DNA from: Lactobacillales bacterium
GTDB lineage: Bacteria; Bacillota; Bacilli; Lactobacillales; Streptococcaceae
Length of the DNA stretch: 64,000 bases
Reading direction: 5' to 3'
NCBI GenBank assembly: GCA_031261175.1
Contig: JAISJW010000022.1
Coordinates: forward strand, 178,154-242,153
The position numbers and the translations under genes were made by a program. Shown here one piece after another: positions 527 to 11,923 of the stretch (its first letter is position 1; every line of letters starts with the position of its first letter). Under the pieces are notes generated by a model. The model worked only from the letters and a program-made list of their open reading frames with translations, searched no databases and was not told where the DNA came from.

Positions 527-793
527 TTAATATATTTTTCTTCTATGTCCAACCGTAATCGCATGAATAATTAATTCTGCATCTTCGATTTGCACAATAA
601 CTCGATAATCTCCAATTCGATATCGCCACATACCCGCGTGATTGCCCACCAAAGCTTTAGCATTGGCATATGGGTTTTCTCGCCCATCAACATTATCATG
701 CAGCCATTGCAATATTCTTTTTGCTACCGCTTTATCTAACTTCCTGATTTGCTTATCAAACTTTTCTGTTCGTCTAATTTGATATTTCCCCAT
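527..793 (-). CDS. RelE/ParE-family type II toxin
   Basis: The 88-residue protein has the RelE/ParE fold signature: N-terminal KFDKQIRKLDKAVAKRILQWL helices, then GMWRYRIGDYRVIVQI in the central strands and a C-terminal HAITVGHRRKIY with the basic and aromatic residues typical of RelE-type mRNA interferases. Such toxins usually cleave mRNA in the ribosomal A site and are neutralised by the upstream antitoxin. The start ATG at 791-793 overlaps the antitoxin stop by one base (TAATG), indicating translational coupling. A RelE activity rather than ParE gyrase poisoning is the likelier reading but is not proved by sequence. Confidence 0.9.
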   Translation of the reverse strand: MGKYQIRRTEKFDKQIRKLDKAVAKRILQWLHDNVDGRENPYANAKALVGNHAGMWRYRIGDYRVIVQIEDAELIIHAITVGHRRKIY

Positions 794-1020
794 TACTTAA
801 TACCAAACTCCGCATACAAGTCATCCATCGGTTGCGACTTCGATCCGCCAGCAACCCATTCGGCAATTGATTCGTCACCGACTTTTGCATCATATTCATC
901 TTCAAGCTGCTCAAAAGTTTTTCTCTTCAACAACTCAGATATACTCAAACCTTCAAATTTCGCCATAAAATCGATAAAGTTTTTCTCTTCTTCCGTCACT
1001 CTAACTGATATAACTGCCAT
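793..1020 (-). CDS. RelB/DUF6290-like antitoxin
   Basis: The 75-residue protein starts MAVISVRVTEEEKNFIDFMAKFEGLSISELLK, a ribbon-helix-helix DNA-binding domain, followed by an acidic, flexible C-terminus ending AEFGIK that would wrap the toxin. I choose ATG at 1020 rather than the upstream GTG at 1029 because an AGGTGA site sits at the right distance. It would both neutralise the toxin and repress the operon through the palindrome in the promoter. Gene order is antitoxin then toxin. Confidence 0.88.
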   Translation of the reverse strand: MAVISVRVTEEEKNFIDFMAKFEGLSISELLKRKTFEQLEDEYDAKVGDESIAEWVAGGSKSQPMDDLYAEFGIK

Positions 1021-1046
1021 AATAATCACCTATTCCTTATATCACC

Positions 1047-1075
1047 ATTATAACACCAACTACATTTGTAGTCAA
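1047..1075 (-). promoter_or_regulatory. Promoter and operator of the toxin-antitoxin operon
   Basis: On the minus strand TTGACT (1070-1075) and TATAAT (1047-1052) are separated by exactly 17 bp. The palindrome ACTACA-TT-TGTAGT (1059-1072) overlaps the -35 box and spacer, as expected for an autorepressed RHH antitoxin operator. Confidence 0.8.
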
Positions 1076-1109
1076 GAATAGGTGGTTAGGCTTAATATTG
1101 TACGATTGT

Positions 1110-4100
1110 CTATCTACTTCTCAATTCTTTATATGAAACTTTCGCAACTTGGTGCATCACGAACTGATAGTATTCTGTATCTTTAAACAACTTCTCGTAA
1201 GCACTAGTATTCTCCATATATAACTTCATCGTCATTTTTTCAAACTCTTTTTTATACAGATCATTCACAAACATAGCCGAATCATTGTTCTTCGCCATAT
1301 GTTCCAGCTTGTGATCAGGATCATCCAGAGTTCCGTTAACAATGCTCGTCAAAATAACTCGATCAGCATCGCTAAACCCTTCGGGGAACCGACCATTAAC
1401 TCGGGCAATTATCTCTTCAAGAGTCTCATCTTCGTTCGGTGCTTTTAAACTGCTTCCAGCACCGTTAAGGTTTTCAAGAATACCCGCATCTTCGTCTTCT
1501 TTTACTAAAGGAATTGCTCCTTCAAAATCTTTGGTTATTTTGAAATATTCCAAACTTATTTTATCAGACAAATCAACATTGGCGCGTTTCTCAGCCGGCA
1601 AGAACGACAACAAATACTTCGCGAACATACTTTCTTCAAGCAGCTCCATATCGAGCATTCGAATCAACTGCGTAACGTAGCCGTAAATCTTGATAAACTT
1701 ACGCAACGATGCTCTGAAATCATATTTAACTTCATCCGACAAATCATTATAGCGGTCTACTACCGGTTTCAAAGCACTACTCATTCGTCCAAGCAAACGT
1801 TCGTCTTGCTTCTTAGATGCCGCTCGGTAAATTGCCATAACTTTTTCAATATCTGCGGAATTATAAATTTTAAATTCGCGCAATTTCATCTGCAAACTAT
1901 AAATAATATTTACGTCAATTTCGTGATCCAACGAAGTCTCTTCATAATAAGGTTGAAATGCTTCTAAAATCTCATTTTGCGTATTAACGAAATCCAAAAC
2001 GAAAGTATCATTCTTCCCTTGCATTGTCCGGTTCAACCGTGACAAAGTTTGCACCGCCTTGACTCCGCGCAACTTCTTATCAACAAACATCGTGTGCAAT
2101 AACGGCTCGTCAAATCCTGTTTGATATTTCTCTGCGACAATCAGCACGTTGAAATCTGGAGTGTGAAAAACATCTTTCAACTGATTTTCCTTAACACTTT
2201 TACCATCTTTCATAATGTTCAATTTCGGTTCTGTAAAGCTAGCACCATCATCGTCAACTTCGCCCGAGAACGCGACCAAAACATCCATATCCGCATAACC
2301 TTTTTCAGCGATATATTCTTTAAATGCCTTCATATAACGAACGGCGTGTAACCGTGATGCCGTAACAACCATCGCTTTTGCTCGCCCGTTGATAGCCGCT
2401 TTCGTCACTTCCCTAAACTGCTCAACCATAATCTGCGTCTTTTGCGCTAGTTCATACGGGTGCAATGATTCGAAGCGGGCAATTGCCCGGGTCGCCTCTG
2501 ACGTCGGAAGTTCTGGATTTTCTTCGATTTCTTTAGCGATTTTATACGACACGTTGTATGTCATATAGTTTTGCAACACATCTAAAATAAATCCTTCATC
2601 AATCGCTTGGCGCATCGAATAAATATGGAACGGTTTATACTTCCCATCGAGTTGCTTTTGTCCAAACGTTTCCAAAGTTACCTGTTTAGGAGTAGCTGTA
2701 AATGCAAAGAAGCTCAGATTCGGATGCTGTCCGTGGGCAAGTAATGTATTGACCATTTCATCTTGAGAATCGACTTCTTTAGCTTCGATTTCATCTTCGA
2801 GCTCTTGATATTCCTTCAACGCCTCGGTTTTATCGGACAAGGCAACCTTTAATTTCTGCGCGCTACTTCCCGTTTGCGAAGAATGGGCTTCATCGACGAT
2901 CACGGCGAAGTTGCGTTCTTTGATATCGTCGAGTTGGTCGAAGATAACCGGGAATTTTTGTAGCGTTGTGATAATGATTTTCTTGCCGTCGTTTATCGCA
3001 TTTTTCAAATCTTGCGCTGACTTGCCTTCGCCAATCGTCTCAACTAGACCCGGCTGGTGATCAAAACTCGTAATCGTGTTCTGCAGTTGGCGATCAAGCA
3101 CCGTTCTATCGGTCACTATGATGACTGTCGAGATAATCGATTCATCGGCCGCGTCGTGGGCGTTCGATAAATGATAGGCCAGCCACGCAATGGTGTTCGA
3201 TTTACCACTTCCTGCACTGTGTTGAATTAGATAGTTTTTACCCGTGCTGTTGAACAGGATATCTGCTTCAACCTTTTTAACCGCGTGCCATTGATGGAAT
3301 CTCGGGAAGATCAATTTGCCATCGTCAAGATTCATAAAGCGTTGTAAAATATCCATCAACGAATCTTTTTGCAAAACTTGTTCCCAAAGATAGCTTGTCG
3401 CATAGCCGGCGGTGTTTTCAGGATTGCCTTTTCCGCCAACTTCTCCCGGTCCGTTCGACCCTTGATTAAACGGCAAGAAATAAGTTTTCTTTCCATCTAA
3501 TTTTGTTGTCATCCAAGCCTCATAATGGTCGACGGCAAAATAGACTAAGAACCGGCGGTTAAATTGGAATGATAATTCGCGCGCATCGCGGTCATACATA
3601 AATTGCTTTTTCGCGTGTTCCACACTTTGATTGGTGAATTGATTTTTCAACTCAATCGCAACTAGCGGAATCCCGTTCAGCGACAACACCATATCAATCG
3701 TGTTACGATTGTTAGGGCTATACGCAAATTGGCGCGTGCAAGTCAAAATATTTTTGCGATAATTATCCATCGCCTCTTGATTCAACCTTGAACCCGGTTT
3801 GAAATAAACGAATTTCAGCGGTACGCCGCGATCCTTGATTCCGCCCCGCAAAACATCAAGTAAACCTCGACTTTGAACCTCGTCATCAAACCGCTTATAT
3901 AACTTCTCTGGTGCATCGCCCTTATAAATCGTTTCATAGCGTTTCCAAGCTTTTGGCTGCGTTTCTTTAACAAATGAAACTAATTTTTCCAAATCAATTC
4001 CTCGCTCAGCATCGAATCCACCATCCTGAAAAACTTCCTTCTGATATCCACCGTCAAAAGACGTCAAAAACGACTCAATATCCTGCTCAAACCTAATTTC

Positions 4101-4118
4101 TTTATTTTCTAATGCCAT
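1110..4118 (-). CDS. hsdR: Type I restriction enzyme R subunit HsdR
   Basis: This 1002-residue protein is the ATP-dependent translocase and endonuclease of a type I restriction system. An N-terminal nuclease domain carries the D...ELK motif (DMVLSLNGIPLVAIELKNQ, about residues 140-165). Two RecA-like motor domains follow, with Walker A SAGSGKSNT, the DEAH box VIVDEAHSSQ and FTATPK. A helical C-terminal domain would contact the methylase. Length is normal for HsdR and no frameshift is seen. It begins 2 bp after the HEPN gene and is last in the operon hsdM-hsdS-HEPN-hsdR. It would restrict DNA lacking the modification placed by HsdM/HsdS. Confidence 0.95.
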   Translation of the reverse strand: MALENKEIRFEQDIESFLTSFDGGYQKEVFQDGGFDAERGIDLEKLVSFVKETQPKAWKRYETIYKGDAPEKLYKRFDDEVQSRGLLDVLRGGIKDRGVPLKFVYFKPGSRLNQEAMDNYRKNILTCTRQFAYSPNNRNTIDMVLSLNGIPLVAIELKNQFTNQSVEHAKKQFMYDRDARELSFQFNRRFLVYFAVDHYEAWMTTKLDGKKTYFLPFNQGSNGPGEVGGKGNPENTAGYATSYLWEQVLQKDSLMDILQRFMNLDDGKLIFPRFHQWHAVKKVEADILFNSTGKNYLIQHSAGSGKSNTIAWLAYHLSNAHDAADESIISTVIIVTDRTVLDRQLQNTITSFDHQPGLVETIGEGKSAQDLKNAINDGKKIIITTLQKFPVIFDQLDDIKERNFAVIVDEAHSSQTGSSAQKLKVALSDKTEALKEYQELEDEIEAKEVDSQDEMVNTLLAHGQHPNLSFFAFTATPKQVTLETFGQKQLDGKYKPFHIYSMRQAIDEGFILDVLQNYMTYNVSYKIAKEIEENPELPTSEATRAIARFESLHPYELAQKTQIMVEQFREVTKAAINGRAKAMVVTASRLHAVRYMKAFKEYIAEKGYADMDVLVAFSGEVDDDGASFTEPKLNIMKDGKSVKENQLKDVFHTPDFNVLIVAEKYQTGFDEPLLHTMFVDKKLRGVKAVQTLSRLNRTMQGKNDTFVLDFVNTQNEILEAFQPYYEETSLDHEIDVNIIYSLQMKLREFKIYNSADIEKVMAIYRAASKKQDERLLGRMSSALKPVVDRYNDLSDEVKYDFRASLRKFIKIYGYVTQLIRMLDMELLEESMFAKYLLSFLPAEKRANVDLSDKISLEYFKITKDFEGAIPLVKEDEDAGILENLNGAGSSLKAPNEDETLEEIIARVNGRFPEGFSDADRVILTSIVNGTLDDPDHKLEHMAKNNDSAMFVNDLYKKEFEKMTMKLYMENTSAYEKLFKDTEYYQFVMHQVAKVSYKELRSR

Positions 4119-4120
4119 AA

Positions 4121-5329
4121 TTATTCTTCGCTCTCCTCATCAAATGAAATAGGCGTTACACTATCAAACTCCAAATTTGGAAATTTCATCACGCTAGTAA
4201 TCGACTCGACTTGCGTTCTATTGTAATCTAATATATCTTGCAACGGGCGCAATGTTTCGCTCATCGCATTAATAACCGCAACGCTTGGTGCCATCATTTT
4301 TGAAATTTTATCTGTATACTCACTCAACCACGAAAAGGATGGTAATTTTATAGCTGCAATTATTTCTCCCATTCTTTCGCTCGCAATTCTAATAGACTCT
4401 ACATATTCTTGAGATCTTTCGAGGCTAGCCGCTTCAAATATTTTGGCTCCGAATTTATTGTATATTACAGTGTCGCATAAAGAGTACAGCATATTTATGA
4501 ATTGCTTTGATTCTTTTTTTATAAACTCATATTCTTCAAAACTAACCGATTTATTATGTGCTACCTTATTTCTTATTTTATTAAATTCTAATATGAACGC
4601 TTCTACATTGACTACTTTAAATTCATCAGCGATTATCGGTTTGAAATATCGCTCCCAAACAGACGTATACTCTTCCAAAATCTCGCCGTTCGAAATTCTT
4701 TGTAAAATCCCCAACACTGCTGATTCCTCTAACAAAATTATATCACTCACATTTTTGGTTTGATTTTTCAATCCTACAAAAAGTTTTATAAATATAAATT
4801 TCTCCAAATCAGAAATAGTCATTTCATCAAATATATGTTCGCTTTTAGCACTTTTTTGATTGCTTTTTAGCTTTTTTATTTTAGTTTTATCTAAAAAATG
4901 ATTTTCCCACCCTTTGCCATGATCAAGAGAAAACGTCAACACTAATAATTTTCTCAAATTATTTTCCATCTCATTAATTATCGGATATAGCTTTCCTGAA
5001 TAATAAGCCGAAAGTGGTTTGTTTAGAAAAGTGATTTCATAATCATTTTTGCTACAGTGCTTTTTTAATTCGTATTTGAACTCATCGTAATATTTCATGT
5101 GCTGGTATCTAACATCAGTTATTGCATCTACCCATGCAAATAATATTCCATCGTCAACTTTGGCATCAATATTAAAAATAATTGATTTATTTATATCACT
5201 TGTTCGAAATGATAGTTCATCTCCTTCATACGAGAATGAGTCGTTCGAAAAGACTGAATCATATAGATTTTCAATTGATATTCCTTCTAGTTTAGGTATA
5301 ATTACAACTTCAAACGTCAATTTAGCCAA
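4121..5329 (-). CDS. HEPN-domain protein embedded in the type I restriction operon
   Basis: This 402-residue protein lies between hsdS and hsdR with 1-2 bp gaps, so it is part of the operon. Residues 115-145 (YPIINEMENNLRKLLVLTF) resemble the first helix of HEPN/Swt1-like domains. Residues 243-280 contain KIRNKVAHNK, an R-x4-H motif (R253, H258) that forms the RNase active site in HEPN families. The N-terminal 100 residues look like a beta-rich domain and the C-terminus (300-402) is helical. HEPN proteins are often RNases that kill or arrest phage-infected cells; PrrC is the known precedent for an anticodon nuclease kept silent by a type Ic restriction enzyme. A similar guard role here is inference. 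The gene is more AT-rich than hsdR and hsdM. Confidence 0.7.
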   Translation of the reverse strand: MAKLTFEVVIIPKLEGISIENLYDSVFSNDSFSYEGDELSFRTSDINKSIIFNIDAKVDDGILFAWVDAITDVRYQHMKYYDEFKYELKKHCSKNDYEITFLNKPLSAYYSGKLYPIINEMENNLRKLLVLTFSLDHGKGWENHFLDKTKIKKLKSNQKSAKSEHIFDEMTISDLEKFIFIKLFVGLKNQTKNVSDIILLEESAVLGILQRISNGEILEEYTSVWERYFKPIIADEFKVVNVEAFILEFNKIRNKVAHNKSVSFEEYEFIKKESKQFINMLYSLCDTVIYNKFGAKIFEAASLERSQEYVESIRIASERMGEIIAAIKLPSFSWLSEYTDKISKMMAPSVAVINAMSETLRPLQDILDYNRTQVESITSVMKFPNLEFDSVTPISFDEESEE

Positions 5330-5330
5330 C

Positions 5331-6590
5331 TCAAACCTCTTTCTTTCCGGTTACGTATTCGAAGATTATTGATTTTTTATAATTTTCGTATTCTACCACC
5401 AATTCGCTTTTTTCTGAAATCAACGATTCAATATCAGCAGATAACTTATCCAAGCTATCAGCAATTTCATTTTGTTCTTCTATTTGAGGCAAAGCCAACT
5501 TTAATTGTTTTATATCGTTATATGTGACTCCCTGCCGTACTCCAGACCCCATACCGTAATATCCTTTATTAATATCAAATGCATATAATTGATAGTAAAC
5601 AAATTTACTGTTGATTTTCAATTGTGGTCGCATAGTAATATAAGCAGATGTGATTATTCCTTTTTCCTCGACGAATCCTTGTCTAAGACTAGTATGATCG
5701 TTTTGTAGATCTGTCATCCTTAGCACAATATCTTTATAATTTATGATATTATATCCCTCGAACGATTCAGGTAATAATCCATCTCCGCCGTTAATGTTCT
5801 TTCGTTTTAGTTTGCCGTAAGACAAGGATAATAGGTTAGTTTCAACAAGATTTTTATTTTTATCTTTAACTTGAGTAAAATATTGCGAAATCGAATTAAT
5901 ACTCCACTTTTCGGGGATTTGGCCGATCCAATCGATGTGGCTGTCTTTGAGTGGGGCGTTGGGGTTGAGGCCGCGGGTGACGGCTTCGGTGATGATTGAT
6001 TGTTTATATTTTTTCAACTCTTCAATCGACTCTTTCGTCTCACCAATAATCGAATCAATGGTTGATATTTTCTCATCAATAAGAGAAACTATTGCGTTTT
6101 GTTCGATTAATTTAGGCAAAACTAGTGGCAATTTGCATATATCACTATACGTTACTCCCTGACGAACGCCAGAACCCATACCGTAATATCCTTTAACGAT
6201 ATCGAAAGCAAATAGTTGATAATAAACAAACTTACTATCTACTTCGTTTCGTTTTCTGATAGTTATATATGCTGATGTTAATATGCCTTTTTCATTTACA
6301 ATACCTTGTCGTAAGCTGTTATGATCGTTTTGTAAATCTGTCATTCTTAAAACAACGTCATCTATATCAACAATATTATATCCTTCAAAACTTTCAGGTA
6401 ATAATCCGTCACCAGAATTAATATCTCGTCGTTTTATTTTGCCGTAAGAAAGAGATAATAAGTTAGTTTCTTGCATACCGATATTTTTTTGTTTATGGTG
6501 CTTAAAATATTGCGATATTTTATTTATTGACCAACTGTCTGGCATTGTTCCAAACCAATCAATTCCACTATCTTTCATTTGTCTGGTCAT
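5331..6590 (-). CDS. hsdS: Type I specificity subunit HsdS with two near-identical recognition domains
   Basis: The 419-residue protein has the standard layout of two target recognition domains (TRD1 about 5-163, TRD2 about 215-373), each followed by a conserved coiled-coil helix (165-205 and 375-412). The two TRDs are almost the same sequence: ETNLLSLSYGK, DGLLPESFEGYNI, LRMTDLQNDH, GYYGMGSGVRQGVTY all occur twice at an offset of about 210 residues. In ordinary HsdS the TRDs differ and specify two unrelated half-sites. Because the halves sit in two-fold pseudo-symmetry, identical TRDs predict a palindromic bipartite target. Its start overlaps the hsdM stop by one base. No truncation is visible. 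Confidence 0.95.
   Translation of the reverse strand: MTRQMKDSGIDWFGTMPDSWSINKISQYFKHHKQKNIGMQETNLLSLSYGKIKRRDINSGDGLLPESFEGYNIVDIDDVVLRMTDLQNDHNSLRQGIVNEKGILTSAYITIRKRNEVDSKFVYYQLFAFDIVKGYYGMGSGVRQGVTYSDICKLPLVLPKLIEQNAIVSLIDEKISTIDSIIGETKESIEELKKYKQSIITEAVTRGLNPNAPLKDSHIDWIGQIPEKWSINSISQYFTQVKDKNKNLVETNLLSLSYGKLKRKNINGGDGLLPESFEGYNIINYKDIVLRMTDLQNDHTSLRQGFVEEKGIITSAYITMRPQLKINSKFVYYQLYAFDINKGYYGMGSGVRQGVTYNDIKQLKLALPQIEEQNEIADSLDKLSADIESLISEKSELVVEYENYKKSIIFEYVTGKKEV
5331..6590 (-). repeat. Intragenic tandem duplication of about 630 bp within hsdS
   Basis: The two halves of hsdS are direct repeats at DNA level in long stretches, for example around 5550-5600 and 6175-6230, with silent and conservative differences elsewhere. 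This indicates TRD duplication or gene conversion with later drift. Confidence 0.8.
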
Positions 6591-8383
6591 TATTTCACCT
6601 CGCCATTTGCTAGAGCGTCAAACGATTTCATAATGCTTGCTTCGAGTTCCTTGATGCGAGAAGCGATTGTTTCACTTGCCTCGGGAGCGACGTATTTATA
6701 GAAAAGGCGTGTGAACGGGATTTCATATCCGATTTTAGTCCCTTTTTCGTCAATCCAAGCGCCGGGATTATATGGTAAAACTTCGCGCTCGAAATAATCC
6801 TCGATATTTTCTTTTAACGGAATATCTTCGGTATCTTTGGCATCTTTATCGGCAGTTGGTTTTCCTTTTTTCAAGATTATTTCCCCCGCTTCATCTTTAA
6901 GCGGCGTTTGAACGACAATTTTGCTAAAACCAAAATCTTCGTTATCGAAAATTTTAGATTCTAAAACGTTGCCAGCTACTTCGTAATTCTTTTCTTGGAA
7001 ATCGCCATAAGCTTGAACGATCGCATCGCGATTTGCCGTATCAATTTCAACACGTTTGCTACCGATGTTTTTACGACGTTTAACATACATTTGCGAAGCG
7101 TCGATTAATTGAATTTTGCCTGCACGTTCAGCCGATTTGTTTTTGCTGAAGATCCAGACATAAGTTGAGATTCCGGTATTGTAAAATAAATCGGTTGGCA
7201 GTTGAACGATGGCTTCAAGATAATCATTTTCAATTACATAGCGACGGATTTCTGATTCGCCACCGCCGGCATTGCCAGAGAATAGAGCTGAGCCGTTATG
7301 GACAATTGCCATTCGACCGTGATCTTTTAATTTGCTCAAGCCGTTTAATTGGAACAGTAATTGCCCATCGCTGATTTTCGGAGTACCTGGCGCAAAGCGC
7401 CCGTTTTCGCCAAGCGCGTGCTCAGCCTCAACCGCGTCTTTTGCCGTCTTCCAGTCGATACCGAATGGTGGATTTGAAATACAGTAGTCGAAAGTATAGC
7501 CAGGAAATTGATCCTCAGAGAGCGTATTCCCTTTTTTCATATTATCAGGATTTCCGCCACGAATCATTGTATCTGATTTGGCGATAGCAAAGGTTTCGGG
7601 GTTGAATTCTTGCCCGTAGGTCACGACGTCGACCGATTTGTTAAGCTCGTGAATACGCTCTTGCATCGCGCTCAGCATTTGGCTCGTCCCCATCGTTTGG
7701 TCATAGACCGTTTTCGTGATGTTTTGTTTAGTCAGGATGTCCTTGTCGTTGACCAACAATAGGTCGGTCATTAGGTAGATGATGTCGCGGCTGGTGAAGT
7801 GTTCCCCCGCACCCTCGTTGGTGCTTTCTGAGAAGCGTCTAACCAATTCTTCGAAGACGTAGCCCATATCAGTGCTTGTCATTTCGTCGGCGCCTAGTTT
7901 GGCTTTGGCCGAGTTGAATTCCGTGATGATTAGGAATAATGAGTTGTTATCAGCTAGTTTTGAAATTTGATTTTCGAACTCGAAGTTTTCGAGGATTTCT
8001 TGAACGTTTTCCGAGAATCCATTTAGGTAGGCTCGGAAGTTAGTTTCGATTTGATCAGCATCCGCTAATAGTTTATCGAAGGTGAACGGACTCGTGTTGA
8101 AGAAGTCGTAGCCGTTCGGGTTTTCCGGCGTTTTAGTCGCTTCTTTGATGAACATAGCGGCAAGTTCAGTAGCTTTGTCTTTATGCTGTTCAGCTGCTTT
8201 GATGACCGCTTCGTGCGTTGGTAGTAAGGTATCGTGAAGGCGTTTGATGACGGTCATCGGTAGAATTACTTTACCGTATTCGTAAGGTTTGTATGCGCCT
8301 CTTAATAAGTTGGCGATATTCCAAATTAGGTTTGATTTTTCTTGAACGTTAGCGTTAGTTTGTTTTGTGTGATTGTTTTCCAT
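6590..8383 (-). CDS. hsdM: Type I DNA adenine methyltransferase HsdM
   Basis: The 597-residue protein starts with the helical N-terminal domain of HsdM (NLIWNIANLLRGAYKPYEYGKVILPMTVIKRL) and continues into an N6-adenine methylase domain. The catalytic motif IV is intact (YCISNPPFGIDW). The SAM-binding motif reads VYDQTMGTSQML rather than the textbook DPxCGTGGML; I recall variants like this in other HsdM proteins, so it need not mean inactivity. With HsdS it forms the methylase that protects host DNA and anchors HsdR. It is the first gene of the operon, and its leader carries three palindromes. Confidence 0.95.
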   Translation of the reverse strand: MENNHTKQTNANVQEKSNLIWNIANLLRGAYKPYEYGKVILPMTVIKRLHDTLLPTHEAVIKAAEQHKDKATELAAMFIKEATKTPENPNGYDFFNTSPFTFDKLLADADQIETNFRAYLNGFSENVQEILENFEFENQISKLADNNSLFLIITEFNSAKAKLGADEMTSTDMGYVFEELVRRFSESTNEGAGEHFTSRDIIYLMTDLLLVNDKDILTKQNITKTVYDQTMGTSQMLSAMQERIHELNKSVDVVTYGQEFNPETFAIAKSDTMIRGGNPDNMKKGNTLSEDQFPGYTFDYCISNPPFGIDWKTAKDAVEAEHALGENGRFAPGTPKISDGQLLFQLNGLSKLKDHGRMAIVHNGSALFSGNAGGGESEIRRYVIENDYLEAIVQLPTDLFYNTGISTYVWIFSKNKSAERAGKIQLIDASQMYVKRRKNIGSKRVEIDTANRDAIVQAYGDFQEKNYEVAGNVLESKIFDNEDFGFSKIVVQTPLKDEAGEIILKKGKPTADKDAKDTEDIPLKENIEDYFEREVLPYNPGAWIDEKGTKIGYEIPFTRLFYKYVAPEASETIASRIKELEASIMKSFDALANGEVK

Positions 8384-8400
8384 TTTAATGGGTTCTCCTA

Positions 8401-8469
8401 TTGTTAGGTTAACCTCCTAACAATGTCTTTACCCCTAGGGGTAAAGACAAAAAGAAAAGGTATACCTTT
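8401..8469 (-). promoter_or_regulatory. Leader of hsdM with three palindromes
   Basis: Within 70 bp upstream of hsdM there are three symmetric elements: arms 8401-8408/8416-8423 (TTGTTAGG and complement, with the perfect palindrome AGGTTAACCT inside); a perfect 24-bp palindrome at 8425-8448 (half GTCTTTACCCCT); and a perfect 14-bp palindrome AAAGGTATACCTTT at 8456-8469. In the mRNA the first forms a stem whose loop includes AGGAGG. A TATAAT lies further upstream on the minus strand (near 8500). They look like operators or RNA switches limiting methylase expression; the mechanism is unknown. Confidence 0.65.
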
Positions 8470-8532
8470 GAAATTTTTTCTTCGTATTTTTAATTATAAC
8501 ATTGATAATGCTTGTTTTCTATTATATCTAGC

Positions 8533-10290
8533 TTATTTGATCTCGAACAAATCCGAAATATTCATATCTTGAAAAAGTTGTTGATCTAGCTCTTTTTCTC
8601 TTTGTTTGAGTTCTTGAATTTTCTTATTTAATTTATCTTTTTTATTATTGTAATTCTCAACTGATAAAATTTGATCGCGCAATCCGATTTTTGGTAATTT
8701 CAATGATCTTAAATTATTAGGCGATATTTGTTTGATTGTGCCCCCTTCAGACATCTGCTCCAATTGAGCCAATCCAATCGGGCTCTTCAAATACTCAAAC
8801 AGCCACTCGCTATCTGTTCTGCTTGGATAAGGACGAATGCAAATAAGATTCGAATTAAAAATCACATTTTCATAATCTTCTTTTATAATGCAAATTTTAT
8901 TAGTCGTTCCGCGAACCGATAACAAGACGTCACCTTTTCTTACCTTGTAATTTTCTATTCGCGAATTTTCTCTTGCCTTCACCTTTTTTAGTAACTTTGT
9001 ATCCAATTCATTGTCAATAATATCTGAAATTTTGATTATTCTATAAGCTCCTTCATCGTTTTCATCGCTCGTCGAGTAGTTTAACCCTCGATGCAAATCG
9101 GTAACCTCATCTAATCGTTCAGTCAATTTTTCCGGCATCTCTGCAAATTTTACCTCGACCACTCCATAATCGCCCAATTCGATTTCGTTTGAGAATACAT
9201 ATCTCGATGGCAAAATAACCGCATCTTCTAAATCTTCAACTTTGACGAATTTAGAAAAACCGTCGATTTCATTGCGTTCCGCATAAGCGAACAATATTTT
9301 TTCGAAGTGATCCTTAAGCTCGTTTTCGAACTCCATAGATCTGCGTTCTACTTTAAATTCTGATGCGTTTACCATAAAAATATCTTTTTCTTTTTTATTT
9401 TTATTGATAATTAAAATCGAGCTCCCTCGATTAGTGCTTAGCAGCGACCCTTCTGGTAATTCAATAATAGCCTCGACCCACTCATTTGCCAACATTCCTC
9501 TTCTGATTTCTGCAACAATAGATCCTTTAAAAAGAAGACCGTTAGGTATTAGGAAGATTGCTTTCCCTGTTTCATTAAGGGCTGCGATTCCGTTGCAAAC
9601 AAATGCTAATTCGGGCGTATTGTGTGGTGGCATACCAAACATAAATCTGTTATATTTATCGTTATCAAAGAATGAACTACTTCTTATCGTCGTACCCATT
9701 GGAGGGACCGTAATGACTTTATCGAATTTTTCGTTTTTATAGGCCGGAGTGTCTAAAACATCTCCTTTATATATTTTTATATTTTCTTTTTTTAACAAAA
9801 TAGCCTTCATCCTAAGCAAAGCTACATTGCTTGGATTAATATCTTGCAAACTGAAATTATCAGTTATTTCCTCGCTAAGAATAGTTTGCAATGCGCTACC
9901 TTCCCCAGCTGTCGGGTCTAGCACACTATCTCCTTCTTTCAAATCTCCTAACGCATATAACAATTCGTTTATCGCTGGTGAATCAACGTGATCAGCAAAT
10001 CGTCTTCCCCCGTATTCACCGATTGTGTCTACAATGTCAACGATTAATCCTGATTGTTCATTTTTGAAGGCTTCAACTATAACTTCGTACGCACCTGCAT
10101 CAATTTTTTGGGCGAAATCGAAAAGCCTTATGTCGATTAGCGAATCGTTTAATTCTTTCAAGGTCGTAATTAATTCACTCGTACTCTTTGCTCTTGTTAC
10201 TCCGTATCCAGCTACTAAAAGCTGTACTTGTTGCAATTCAGCCTGTCCTCTAAATTTTTTAGTTATTTCATACATAATTCCTTTTTCCAT
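8533..10290 (-). CDS. N6-methylase-like protein fused to a type I recognition domain, catalytic motif degenerate
   Basis: The 585-residue protein has an HsdM-like helical N-terminus (about 7-110), a methylase Rossmann domain (about 115-330) with an intact SAM-binding motif LDPTAGEGSA (residues 124-133), and a C-terminal HsdS-like recognition domain (about 395-550, including GDVLLSVRGT and the GGTIKQISP signature) ending in a coiled coil. Motif IV, which should read NPPF or similar, is TVPPM (194-198), so the base-flipping and catalytic residues are missing. It may therefore bind DNA and SAM without methylating. The start is uncertain: ATG at 10290 (CGGAGAA site) or ATG at 10275 (AAAAGGAATT site). 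It lies 150 bp upstream of hsdM on the same strand with its own promoter. Confidence 0.82.
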   Translation of the reverse strand: MEKGIMYEITKKFRGQAELQQVQLLVAGYGVTRAKSTSELITTLKELNDSLIDIRLFDFAQKIDAGAYEVIVEAFKNEQSGLIVDIVDTIGEYGGRRFADHVDSPAINELLYALGDLKEGDSVLDPTAGEGSALQTILSEEITDNFSLQDINPSNVALLRMKAILLKKENIKIYKGDVLDTPAYKNEKFDKVITVPPMGTTIRSSSFFDNDKYNRFMFGMPPHNTPELAFVCNGIAALNETGKAIFLIPNGLLFKGSIVAEIRRGMLANEWVEAIIELPEGSLLSTNRGSSILIINKNKKEKDIFMVNASEFKVERRSMEFENELKDHFEKILFAYAERNEIDGFSKFVKVEDLEDAVILPSRYVFSNEIELGDYGVVEVKFAEMPEKLTERLDEVTDLHRGLNYSTSDENDEGAYRIIKISDIIDNELDTKLLKKVKARENSRIENYKVRKGDVLLSVRGTTNKICIIKEDYENVIFNSNLICIRPYPSRTDSEWLFEYLKSPIGLAQLEQMSEGGTIKQISPNNLRSLKLPKIGLRDQILSVENYNNKKDKLNKKIQELKQREKELDQQLFQDMNISDLFEIK

Positions 10291-10387
10291 TTTATCTTAT
10301 TCTCCGTTTCAATTTTTCTTTAATTTGTTTTAGAACCACCGCCATTCATGCATTAATAGCGAAAAGTCGTCACTTTTATTCTACTTT

Positions 10388-10420
10388 GTATATCATATAC
10401 TGTTCTAAATGATTTGTCAA
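10388..10420 (-). promoter_or_regulatory. Promoter of the methylase-recognition fusion, with operator-like palindrome
   Basis: Minus-strand TTGACA (10415-10420) and TATGAT (10392-10397) are 17 bp apart. The perfect palindrome GTATAT-C-ATATAC (10388-10400) covers the -10 box, so a dimeric repressor could occlude it. Confidence 0.7.
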
Positions 10421-10572
10421 TGTTTTTAAACGGTATTATTAATACTCTTTTATACAGAGCGTTTTCTTTAAATTTTTTTAATTATTTTGCCGGAAAATGT
10501 AACAAAACCGAAAAAAATACGTATATATATAGTATAGGGTAAAAAAATTAAATCAAGAAAGGAAACCCCTTT

Positions 10573-11583
10573 ATGAACAAAATTGAATCAAACGAAACAG
10601 AATTTTTCTACAATGTCGCTAGACTAATCAACGATGCGCGAAGTCACATCGTCAAGACCGTCAATTCCACAATGGTCATCACCTACTATGAGATTGGACG
10701 GAGAATTGTCGAGAAGGAGCAGAAAGGAGCGGATAGAGCTGAGTATGGTCAAAAGTTAATTAAAGGGATGTCTACGTATTTAACCGAACATTTAGGGCGC
10801 GGATTTTCTATTACTAATCTCAAACAAATGAAGAAATTTTACTTGATTTATTCATCAAATCAAAAAGGTCAGTTGTTAACTGACCTTTTCGAACCTGCGA
10901 TAAGTTGGACTCATTATGTCCAATTAATGAGGATTACGAATATAGATGAGCGCTCGTTTTACGAACAGGAAATATCAAGTAACAATTGGACAATTAAAGA
11001 ATTTCAACGCCAATTCGACAGCGCCCTATATGAACGTCTGGTCTTGTCCAAAGACAAAGAAAAAGTTAGCGCCCTGTCCCAAATCGGGCAAATCATCGAA
11101 AGCCCAGTAGATATTATCAAAGATCCCTATATCTTGGAATTTCTAAACTTGCCCGAGCACTCCAACTATTCAGAAAGCGAGTTGGAGCAAGAAATTATCG
11201 ACCACCTTCAGGAGTTTATGCTCGAACTAGGCAAAGGATTCTCATTTGTCGCACGCCAAGAACGCTTCACATTTGCCGAAGATTCGTTTTTCGTCGACCT
11301 GGTTTTTTACAACCGCTTGCTTCGCTGCTTCGTGCTGGTCGATTTAAAAATCGGGAAAATCACTCCGCAAGACGCTGGGCAAATGCAGCTCTACGTAAAC
11401 TATTATGATCGCGAAGTCATAGTAGACAGCGAGCACCCAACGATTGGAATTATTCTTTGTAAAAACAAGAACGATAGCGTCGTCAAAATGATGTTACCTG
11501 AGGATAATAAGCAGATTTTCGCCTCGAAATACGAAACTGTTTTACCTACTAAAGAGCAACTTTTAAAACTTCTTAATGATTGA
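10573..11583 (+). CDS. YhcG/DUF1016-family PD-(D/E)XK nuclease-like protein
   Basis: The 336-residue protein has the DUF1016 N-terminal domain (NDARSHIVKTVNSTMVITYYEIGRRIVEKEQKG, then FSITNLKQMKKFYLIY and SWTHYVQLMRI) and a C-terminal PD-(D/E)XK nuclease fold with D in FFVDLVFYN, the DLK core of VLVDLKIGK, and Q in GQMQLYVNYY. This family is often found near type I restriction and other defence loci, although its molecular target is not settled. The ribosome site AAGAAAGGAAA precedes ATG. It is transcribed divergently from the fusion gene. A perfect 12-bp inverted repeat lies inside the gene. Confidence 0.88.
   Translation: MNKIESNETEFFYNVARLINDARSHIVKTVNSTMVITYYEIGRRIVEKEQKGADRAEYGQKLIKGMSTYLTEHLGRGFSITNLKQMKKFYLIYSSNQKGQLLTDLFEPAISWTHYVQLMRITNIDERSFYEQEISSNNWTIKEFQRQFDSALYERLVLSKDKEKVSALSQIGQIIESPVDIIKDPYILEFLNLPEHSNYSESELEQEIIDHLQEFMLELGKGFSFVARQERFTFAEDSFFVDLVFYNRLLRCFVLVDLKIGKITPQDAGQMQLYVNYYDREVIVDSEHPTIGIILCKNKNDSVVKMMLPEDNKQIFASKYETVLPTKEQLLKLLND
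10863..10889. repeat. Perfect 12-bp intragenic inverted repeat
   Basis: AAAAGGTCAGTT, loop GTT, then its exact complement, inside the YhcG-family gene in the linker before SWTHY. It encodes KGQLLTDLF. It is an unusually strong hairpin for coding DNA. Confidence 0.85.
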
Positions 11584-11719
11584 GCTCTACACTTTTTCTG
11601 TCATAATTTTCCCGGTTCTTACATTTTTTCTACCATAGTTTTTTTAATTTTAACATTTTTTCTACCATAACGTTACCAAACTTTACAATTTTGTATGCTT
11701 AAACTTTACAATTTACACA

Positions 11720-11755
11720 AAAGCAGCAACCTCTACTCAAAGATATTGCTGCTTT
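11720..11755. terminator. Hairpin in the 340-bp gap before the LCP gene
   Basis: AAAGCAGCAA (11720-11729) pairs with TTGCTGCTTT (11746-11755). It can end the YhcG transcript. The rest of 11584-11920 is AT-rich with three similar short runs (TTTACAATTT and ACATTTTTTCTACCATA repeated twice) and no convincing gene. Confidence 0.55.
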
Positions 11756-11882
11756 CATTTCATTTTAAACTCTAATTTAAACAAAACCTACTATTCTATA
11801 CCAATCTTCAAAATTTACAACCCTTAAACAATTAAGTTTGAAAAAACTTAACTTTTAGAACTCCCAAAACCTTGAATTTTTT

Positions 11883-11891
11883 TGCTATACT
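11883..11891 (+). promoter_or_regulatory. Extended -10 promoter of the LCP gene
   Basis: TGC-TATACT is an extended -10 element, with no good -35 box. The start codon follows an AAAGGGAG ribosome site. Confidence 0.55.
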
Positions 11892-11923
11892 ATCATTAGA
11901 TTAGATTAAAAGGGAGATTACAA

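Follow-up and report, generated by a model that had tools for sequence, protein, structure and literature searches.

The 402-residue open reading frame (ORF) between hsdS and hsdR of a type I restriction operon in the window (the whole stretch of 64,000 nucleotides analysed here, from contig JAISJW010000022.1 of a Lactobacillales bacterium) probably encodes a HEPN-type protein, judging from its relatives and from profile matches. We give about an even chance to the explanation that fits best, namely that the gene is an abortive-infection payload of the hsdS–hsdR slot, controlled for the most part by itself. The ORF map of the window showed the order hsdM–hsdS–402-aa ORF–hsdR on the minus strand. 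The methyltransferase gene hsdM (6590–8383, minus strand, 597 aa) matched N6_Mtase (E = 1.4e-57) and HsdM_N (E = 3.5e-25), and the specificity subunit gene hsdS (5331–6590, minus strand, 419 aa) matched Methylase_S (PF01420, E = 5.7e-11) and the PADLOC model Specificity_I (E = 1.4e-81). The restriction subunit gene hsdR (1110–4118, minus strand, 1002 aa) matched HSDR_N (E = 6.1e-13) and SWI2_SNF2 (E = 4e-28), and the PDB matches of its product were solved HsdR/EcoR124-type chains only (best E = 6.3e-16). The 402-aa ORF (4121–5329, minus strand, TTG start) is separated by 1 base from the end of hsdS at 5331 and by 2 bases from the start of hsdR at 4118, as an earlier note on this DNA had described. 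Stops are abundant when the plus strand is read in the same register. The sequence GAAAGAGG precedes the TTG by 6 bases, and in alignment the N-terminus of the protein coincides with that of streptococcal copies, which start with ATG. Because the gaps are only 1–2 bases, hsdM–hsdS–HEPN–hsdR is probably one transcript. A consensus scan gave no terminator-like site on the minus strand from the hsdM start to the hsdR start; over positions 900–10700 it returned 35 promoter-like sites vs. 29.0 ± 5.9 in shuffles, and 9 terminator-like sites vs. 7.3 ± 2.7.

Additional genes surround the operon. A 585-aa methylase-specificity (M–S) fusion (N6_Mtase plus Methylase_S; 8533–10290) precedes hsdM by 149 bases and shares its (minus) strand. 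Relatives of this protein (32–35% identical) abut hsdM in loci L013 and L014, with a weaker one (26%) in L021; an extra M–S gene is recurrent beside the type I class of the window operon. A YhcG/DUF1016 PDDEXK nuclease gene (PADLOC PDC-S02; 10573–11583, plus strand) flanks the restriction genes, and a ParE-type toxin gene (527–793, minus strand) lies on their other flank.

Residues 253–258 of the protein read RNKVAH (codons at 4556–4573, minus strand), which is the R253-x4-H258 motif that had been picked out earlier. By itself the motif is no evidence for HEPN, because 16.5% of 5000 shuffles carry R-x4-H; for R-x4-6H the figure was 38.6% of 5000 shuffles. Chance occurrence was ruled out by conservation across relatives, not by the motif itself. 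R253 and H258 are invariant in 27/27 aligned relatives, at a mean column identity of 23%, in an alignment whose rows are in part nearly identical (the four type I copies from streptococci, five members that share one purine-locus type, and L043/L044) and which leaves aside six longer members and the fragmentary or weak G249, G809, G834, G575, and G837. E122 and R126 are the sole other invariant columns. The six longer relatives outside the alignment also carry R-N-H-x2-H according to a motif search.

Profile searches pointed in the same direction. The window protein matched Abi_2 (PF07751) over residues 114–261 with E = 1.1e-4 and 23.0 bits, below the gathering score of 25.6, and HEPN_Swt1 (PF18731) with E = 2.4e-4 and 21.8 bits, below the cut-off of 27.5. 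At E ≤ 0.01, Abi_2 was matched by 1/27 family members, the window protein itself, and HEPN_Swt1 by 16/27; one relative (L042) scored 28.4 bits against HEPN_Swt1, above the cut-off. At E ≤ 1e-3, the PADLOC CARF-HEPN model was matched by 5/27 members (in L010 over residues 204–281, the motif end), the PADLOC candidate PDC-M34B by 13/27 (over partial stretches in the members shown), and the PD-T4-5 profile by 2/27, with partial matches only. Matches of single members to Cas13a (E = 7.5e-4) and Cas13e (E = 0.0028) were too weak to count. NCBIfam held nothing for the window protein and gave 10 scattered one-member matches for the family, including Cas13e among clearly chance ones, and PHROGs gave one-member matches only across the family. 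Searched alone by sequence, the window protein had no PDB match at E ≤ 1; the 11 matches of the 27-sequence profile at E ≤ 1 (best E 0.029), none of them named HEPN, were judged to be chance. No ATPase family was found in the window protein in Pfam to E ≤ 1, in agreement with the earlier note, which held that the N-terminal ATPase of PrrC is lacking here. Together, the conservation of R253 and H258 and the weak Swt1- and Abi_2-like matches make the HEPN assignment likely.

An AlphaFold2 model, built on an alignment of 4 sequences, reached a mean pLDDT of 51.5 and a pTM of 0.41. It shows a beta/alpha domain of uncertain fold to about residue 105 (residues 1–105; 5015–5329, minus strand), helices at residues 106–293 (4451–5014, minus strand), and a long low-confidence C-terminal helix. 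The helical, HEPN-like region includes E122, R126, W225, R253, and H258, and every 10-residue block in it is below pLDDT 80. The N-terminus had previously been called beta-rich: beta strands are indeed predicted there, as part of a low-confidence beta/alpha domain. In a fold comparison with VIA-align, the rows mostly covered residues 1–105 and were ferredoxin-like, with middling Z-scores tied with those of unrelated proteins; a HEPN entry was not listed, which says little, as residues beyond 105 were barely covered. As to the C-terminal part in other family members, the protein of L009 (gene at 7507–9081) ends in a 44-residue tandem repeat that is almost perfect, and several others have looser proline-containing tails.

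Searching 395 order-level genomes by tBLASTn with the window protein retrieved 4 genomes plus its own. Profile searches retrieved 7 plus its own among 390 order-level genomes (the fragmentary G249 among them), 8 plus its own among 398 phylum-level genomes, and 6 of the 82 genomes in the class of G397, of which three hits were short and weak and one had a stop. Among 324 Streptococcaceae genomes the family was present in 19, own included. The order hsdS–HEPN–hsdR occurs in five of these carriers: the window, L050 (G075, S. parasanguinis), L051 (G988, S. sanguinis), L052 (G1100, Streptococcus sp. DD10), and L053 (G1014). These five operons occupy four genomic sites, with flanking genes common to L051 and L053 and different in the others; the linkage to type I operons, on which the earlier proposal depended, is a recurring one. 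Two of the four streptococcal HEPN operons have a 241-aa ORF that overlaps hsdM before hsdS (L050:5983–6708, L051:5986–6711) and that had no Pfam or PADLOC match.

The remaining 14/19 Streptococcaceae carriers have the gene without an HsdM/S/R-like ORF in the flanks examined, which were compared with the Hsd set of the window and two other sets (G308 with that of the window only) and some of which end at contig ends. In 8/19 carriers, all Streptococcus, the gene lies in a purine-synthesis cluster (L010, L055, L056, L058, L059, L063, L064, and L068; at least two distant types), with neighbours that we take to be purK-like and purB-like from their protein starts; in 6/19 it lies elsewhere, outside type I operons. 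The purine-synthesis locus is a possible defence hotspot. Other restriction genes were also found as neighbours: the family member of L008 precedes an MmeI-type enzyme gene by 50 bases, in L041 a 98-aa ORF stands between the family member and the genes of an Eco57I-like methylase and a ResIII/T5orf172 protein, and the member of L042 is the next gene after GmrSD. The family recurs in restriction operons, yet it is not confined to them. Two other arrangements were observed, in which a family gene overlaps the end of an Hsp70-like gene (L046:6198–9121; PF00012, E = 1.1e-65) and in which a KwaB/KwaA pair and a fragmentary family gene lie downstream of hsdR (L070:4947–8496, G249).

A search restricted to HSDR_N found a match elsewhere in the genome for 12/14 stand-alone carriers, the exceptions being G1009, with an intact HEPN gene in a 99%-complete genome, and G921, in which the HEPN gene is apparently split over two ORFs. 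Because 12/14 stand-alone genomes have an HSDR_N match, the absence of hsdR is mostly uninformative as a test of type I dependence, and a type I enzyme may still exert control in trans. Scanning a genome-contig collection gave nothing for the window protein and 3 loci for the L007 protein. There was no match to the HEPN protein at E ≤ 0.01 among 50,697 phage records, and no viral contig in five single-protein scans (P0001, L043, L042, L010, and L007 proteins), which find close relatives only. One weak match was obtained among 72,556 plasmid records, and none for the L050 protein. The empty phage and viral scans and the single weak plasmid match speak against its identity as a phage or plasmid gene.

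The HEPN gene and hsdR differ in history in one pair of operons. The streptococcal HEPN copies are under purifying selection, with dN/dS of 0.09–0.20 in 6/6 pairs of the four copies. HsdS is 39–62% identical among the four operons, indicating that HEPN is retained as the subunit for target recognition changes. Between L051 and L052, HEPN is 88% identical at the amino acid level with a dS of 0.43, vs. 74% for HsdR and 82% for HsdM, with synonymous sites saturated in both. In 150-base windows, DNA identity of the same pair was 83–97% in HEPN and 51–76% in hsdR past the first window; within hsdS it was 45–56% over the second variable part and 79% at the end, and it was 67–84% over most of hsdM. 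The contrast in identity between HEPN and hsdR is sharp, and on the hsdM side it rests on synonymous sites. HEPN, together with the hsdS end and the first hsdR bases, has a history that differs from that of hsdR; the block that moved may be either HEPN or hsdR. GC3 values agree with separate histories of HEPN and hsdR: in the window, hsdS (29.5) and HEPN (28.8) vs. hsdM (46.5) and hsdR (44.0), and for HEPN vs. hsdR 32.3 vs. 23.6 in L051, 28.1 vs. 33.3 in L052, and 30.7 vs. 25.2 in L053.

In the HsdM tree the window operon groups with the streptococcal HEPN operons (85/82), whereas in the HsdR tree the window HsdR does not (81/77 for the other order). Since the two trees disagree, there may have been one acquisition or several. 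The HEPN tree places the window protein, on a long branch, with the streptococcal type I copies and the stand-alone L060 (94/87). A tree with the type I-linked HEPN proteins as a clade of their own was rejected (AU p = 0.0015), with L060 falling inside and the window branch being long. In L050, HEPN is intact beside an hsdM with an in-frame stop at codon 184, in a single draft record in which hsdR is cut by the contig end and for which a sequencing error or a restart is possible; intact hsdM copies exist in relatives of L050.

To place the slot in context, HsdR was searched in 395 order-level genomes, of which 23 had a match at E ≤ 1e-100, own included, and the regions of all 22 others were examined. 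A HEPN-family ORF was present in 0/20 related operons examined, nor was it in L072; the hsdS–hsdR slot was empty in 17/20 and in L072. Cargo occupied the slot in 5/6 Streptococcaceae operons vs. 0/17 outside the family (Fisher p = 1.8e-4), in a comparison chosen after seeing the data and with rows that are not independent (G180, G332, and G384 are close in the HsdR tree). The five comprise HEPN in the window and in G075 and other cargo in G332, G180, and G384. The HEPN gene is apparently an exchangeable passenger in the restriction operon. The other occupants are diverse in their matches: a Kiwa-like pair in the streptococcal G332 operon (L028:3521–5026; KwaA E = 1.2e-16, KwaB E = 2e-7), PDC-M67A, PDC-M67B, and a Fic protein in G180 (L029:7112–9696), and in G384 (L027:3337–4666) two proteins, one of 283 aa that matched no family significantly and one that contains four hydrophobic segments. 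A similar HsdR was found in 753 plasmid records, of which three were examined; the slot was empty in two Enterococcus plasmids, and in the type I operon of a Selenomonas plasmid it was occupied by a RhuM gene (L075:4827–5831).

In the explanation that we favour, the gene would encode an endoribonuclease of a divergent Abi_2/Swt1-like HEPN family, with a beta/alpha N-terminal domain, a HEPN core, and a C-terminal tail, carried as an exchangeable payload in the hsdS–hsdR slot and probably translated from the restriction-enzyme message. Its own N-terminal and C-terminal parts would, most likely, mainly keep it quiet, a phage cue would switch it on, and the R253/H258 site would then cut host and/or phage RNA, such that growth stops and infections that survive restriction end aborted. 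The invariance of R253/H258 in 27/27 relatives, the purifying selection, the occurrence in five genomes at four sites, GC3, the distinct HEPN and hsdR histories, the 14/19 carriers outside type I operons, and the intact HEPN genes of L050 and G1009 all count for a self-controlled payload, as does, by analogy, the abortive defence reported for PD-T4-5, whose profile 2/27 members match (PMC9519451). The poor model (pLDDT 51.5) and the failure of both sequence and fold comparison to retrieve a solved HEPN chain count against it, as do the origin of the hsdM stop from one draft record and the possibility that hsdR rather than HEPN is the replaced block.

The self-controlled payload has to be weighed against a PrrC-like guard, in which HsdRMS (or HsdMS) would bind and silence HEPN until it is set free by overload or by anti-restriction proteins of a phage, whereupon it would cut host RNA. 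PrrC, embedded in and sequestered by a type IC operon, provides the precedent (PMC3874165), and Anantharaman et al. (2013; PMC3710099) suggested such a mechanism for HEPN genes that are linked to R-M systems. The fixed order hsdS–HEPN–hsdR in 5 genomes, the grouping of HEPN-bearing operons in the HsdM tree (85/82), the similarity that the hsdS 3′ end and the first hsdR bases keep along with HEPN, and the hsdR-like gene somewhere in 12/14 stand-alone genomes are consistent with a guard. Several observations count against it: an ATPase sensor was not found in Pfam to E ≤ 1, the slot is empty in 17/20 related operons and in L072, and a type I-only HEPN clade is rejected at AU p = 0.0015 with L060 inside, despite the length of the window branch as a caveat. 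Because 14/19 Streptococcaceae carriers are unlinked, the histories of HEPN and hsdR differ, and L050 has an intact HEPN next to its interrupted hsdM, the evidence leans against an obligate HsdRMS guard. We regard a PrrC-like guard as unlikely, yet as a serious contender; the different histories may be compatible with a conserved interface. A doubtful further proposal is that the hsdS–hsdR junction is a general payload bay, in which the ATPase-free HEPN would be an exchangeable occupant reading the state of the restriction complex via conserved parts of HsdS or HsdR, whose coding ends travel with the HEPN gene. If this were true, the family would be a restriction guard of separate evolutionary origin, able to work with HsdR subunits that differ from each other by 26%.

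Control by RNA instead of protein, with a small non-coding RNA beside the gene neutralising the toxin as the upstream RNA of C. difficile AbiF does (PMC12373285), would agree with the weak Abi_2 match of the window protein. It is highly improbable, given that there is no intergenic room (1–2 bases to the neighbours in the window, overlap with hsdS in the streptococcal copies) and that the abiF RNA (RF03085) was absent from window positions 900–11900 at E ≤ 1 and from 9 relative loci at the gathering score, although an RNA of this type may lie inside a gene or at another locus. The placement of the gene between hsdS and hsdR would also suit a non-toxic accessory, be it an RNA-binding HEPN of low catalytic activity that adjusts how HsdR/HsdS is translated or assembled, or simply a neutral passenger, and the RNase activity of the HEPN protein is a prediction; the purifying selection on the streptococcal copies and the invariance of the motif pair across 27 relatives, many in unrelated contexts, make such a role improbable.

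Both second-line defences nested in type I operons and HEPN genes in R-M operons are already published, and the window gene is a new example of back-up defence in restriction systems rather than a new kind. The earlier suggestion of a back-up abortive system held by the HsdRMS complex is not new either, having been put forward by Anantharaman et al. (2013; PMC3710099) for R-M-linked HEPN genes in general. No description of this HEPN family in the hsdS–hsdR slot was found among the titles and abstract openings listed from the open-licence literature. Its significance lies in an ATPase-free occupant, in streptococci and a related genus, joining the second-line defences nested in type I operons. 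It also lies in close natural variants, with nearly the same HEPN beside different HsdS and HsdR (L050–L053) and an intact HEPN beside an interrupted hsdM (L050). These variants make it testable whether the complex restrains a passenger toxin or the slot is a shared promoter and recombination dock.

Among known systems, the PrrC gene lies exactly between hsdS and hsdR. PrrC, the precedent invoked by the earlier note, is indeed a HEPN-type RNase, encoded within a type IC operon and sequestered by it (PMC3874165; PMC3710099), and the embedding in a type I operon is shared by the window gene and L050–L053. Its N-terminal ABC-ATPase domain was not found in the window protein (Pfam to E ≤ 1), which has a predicted beta/alpha N-terminus instead, and its cleavage of tRNA-Lys and its holding by HsdRMS may have no counterpart in the window protein, for which indirect signs lean against obligate holding. 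Anantharaman et al. (2013; PMC3710099) linked at least 16 HEPN clades to R-M systems and proposed a PrrC-type release, and the Abi2/AbiF/AbiD row of their Table 1 reads "embedded in R-M operons". The window protein resembles the Abi_2/AbiD/AbiF and Swt1-like proteins in both of its Pfam matches and in this embedding; it differs in scoring below the curated cut-offs, in the abiF RNA not being found, and in having a beta/alpha N-terminus (in a low-confidence model) and a C-terminal tail. PD-T4-5, an abortive defence called a distant relative of AbiF/D (PMC9519451), and PDC-M34B are similar to 2/27 and 13/27 members, respectively, although only partially; no mention of PDC-M34 was found in the open-licence literature. 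Embedded defences are the subject of a preprint by Payne et al. (2024), as cited in PMC12255303. The latter describes DarTG2 between hsdS and hsdR in the RptR island, at a site called a potential recombination hotspot. DarTG2 is likewise a second-line toxin in the hsdS–hsdR slot, though a different, ADP-ribosylating one with its own antitoxin gene, whereas the HEPN of the window is a single gene.
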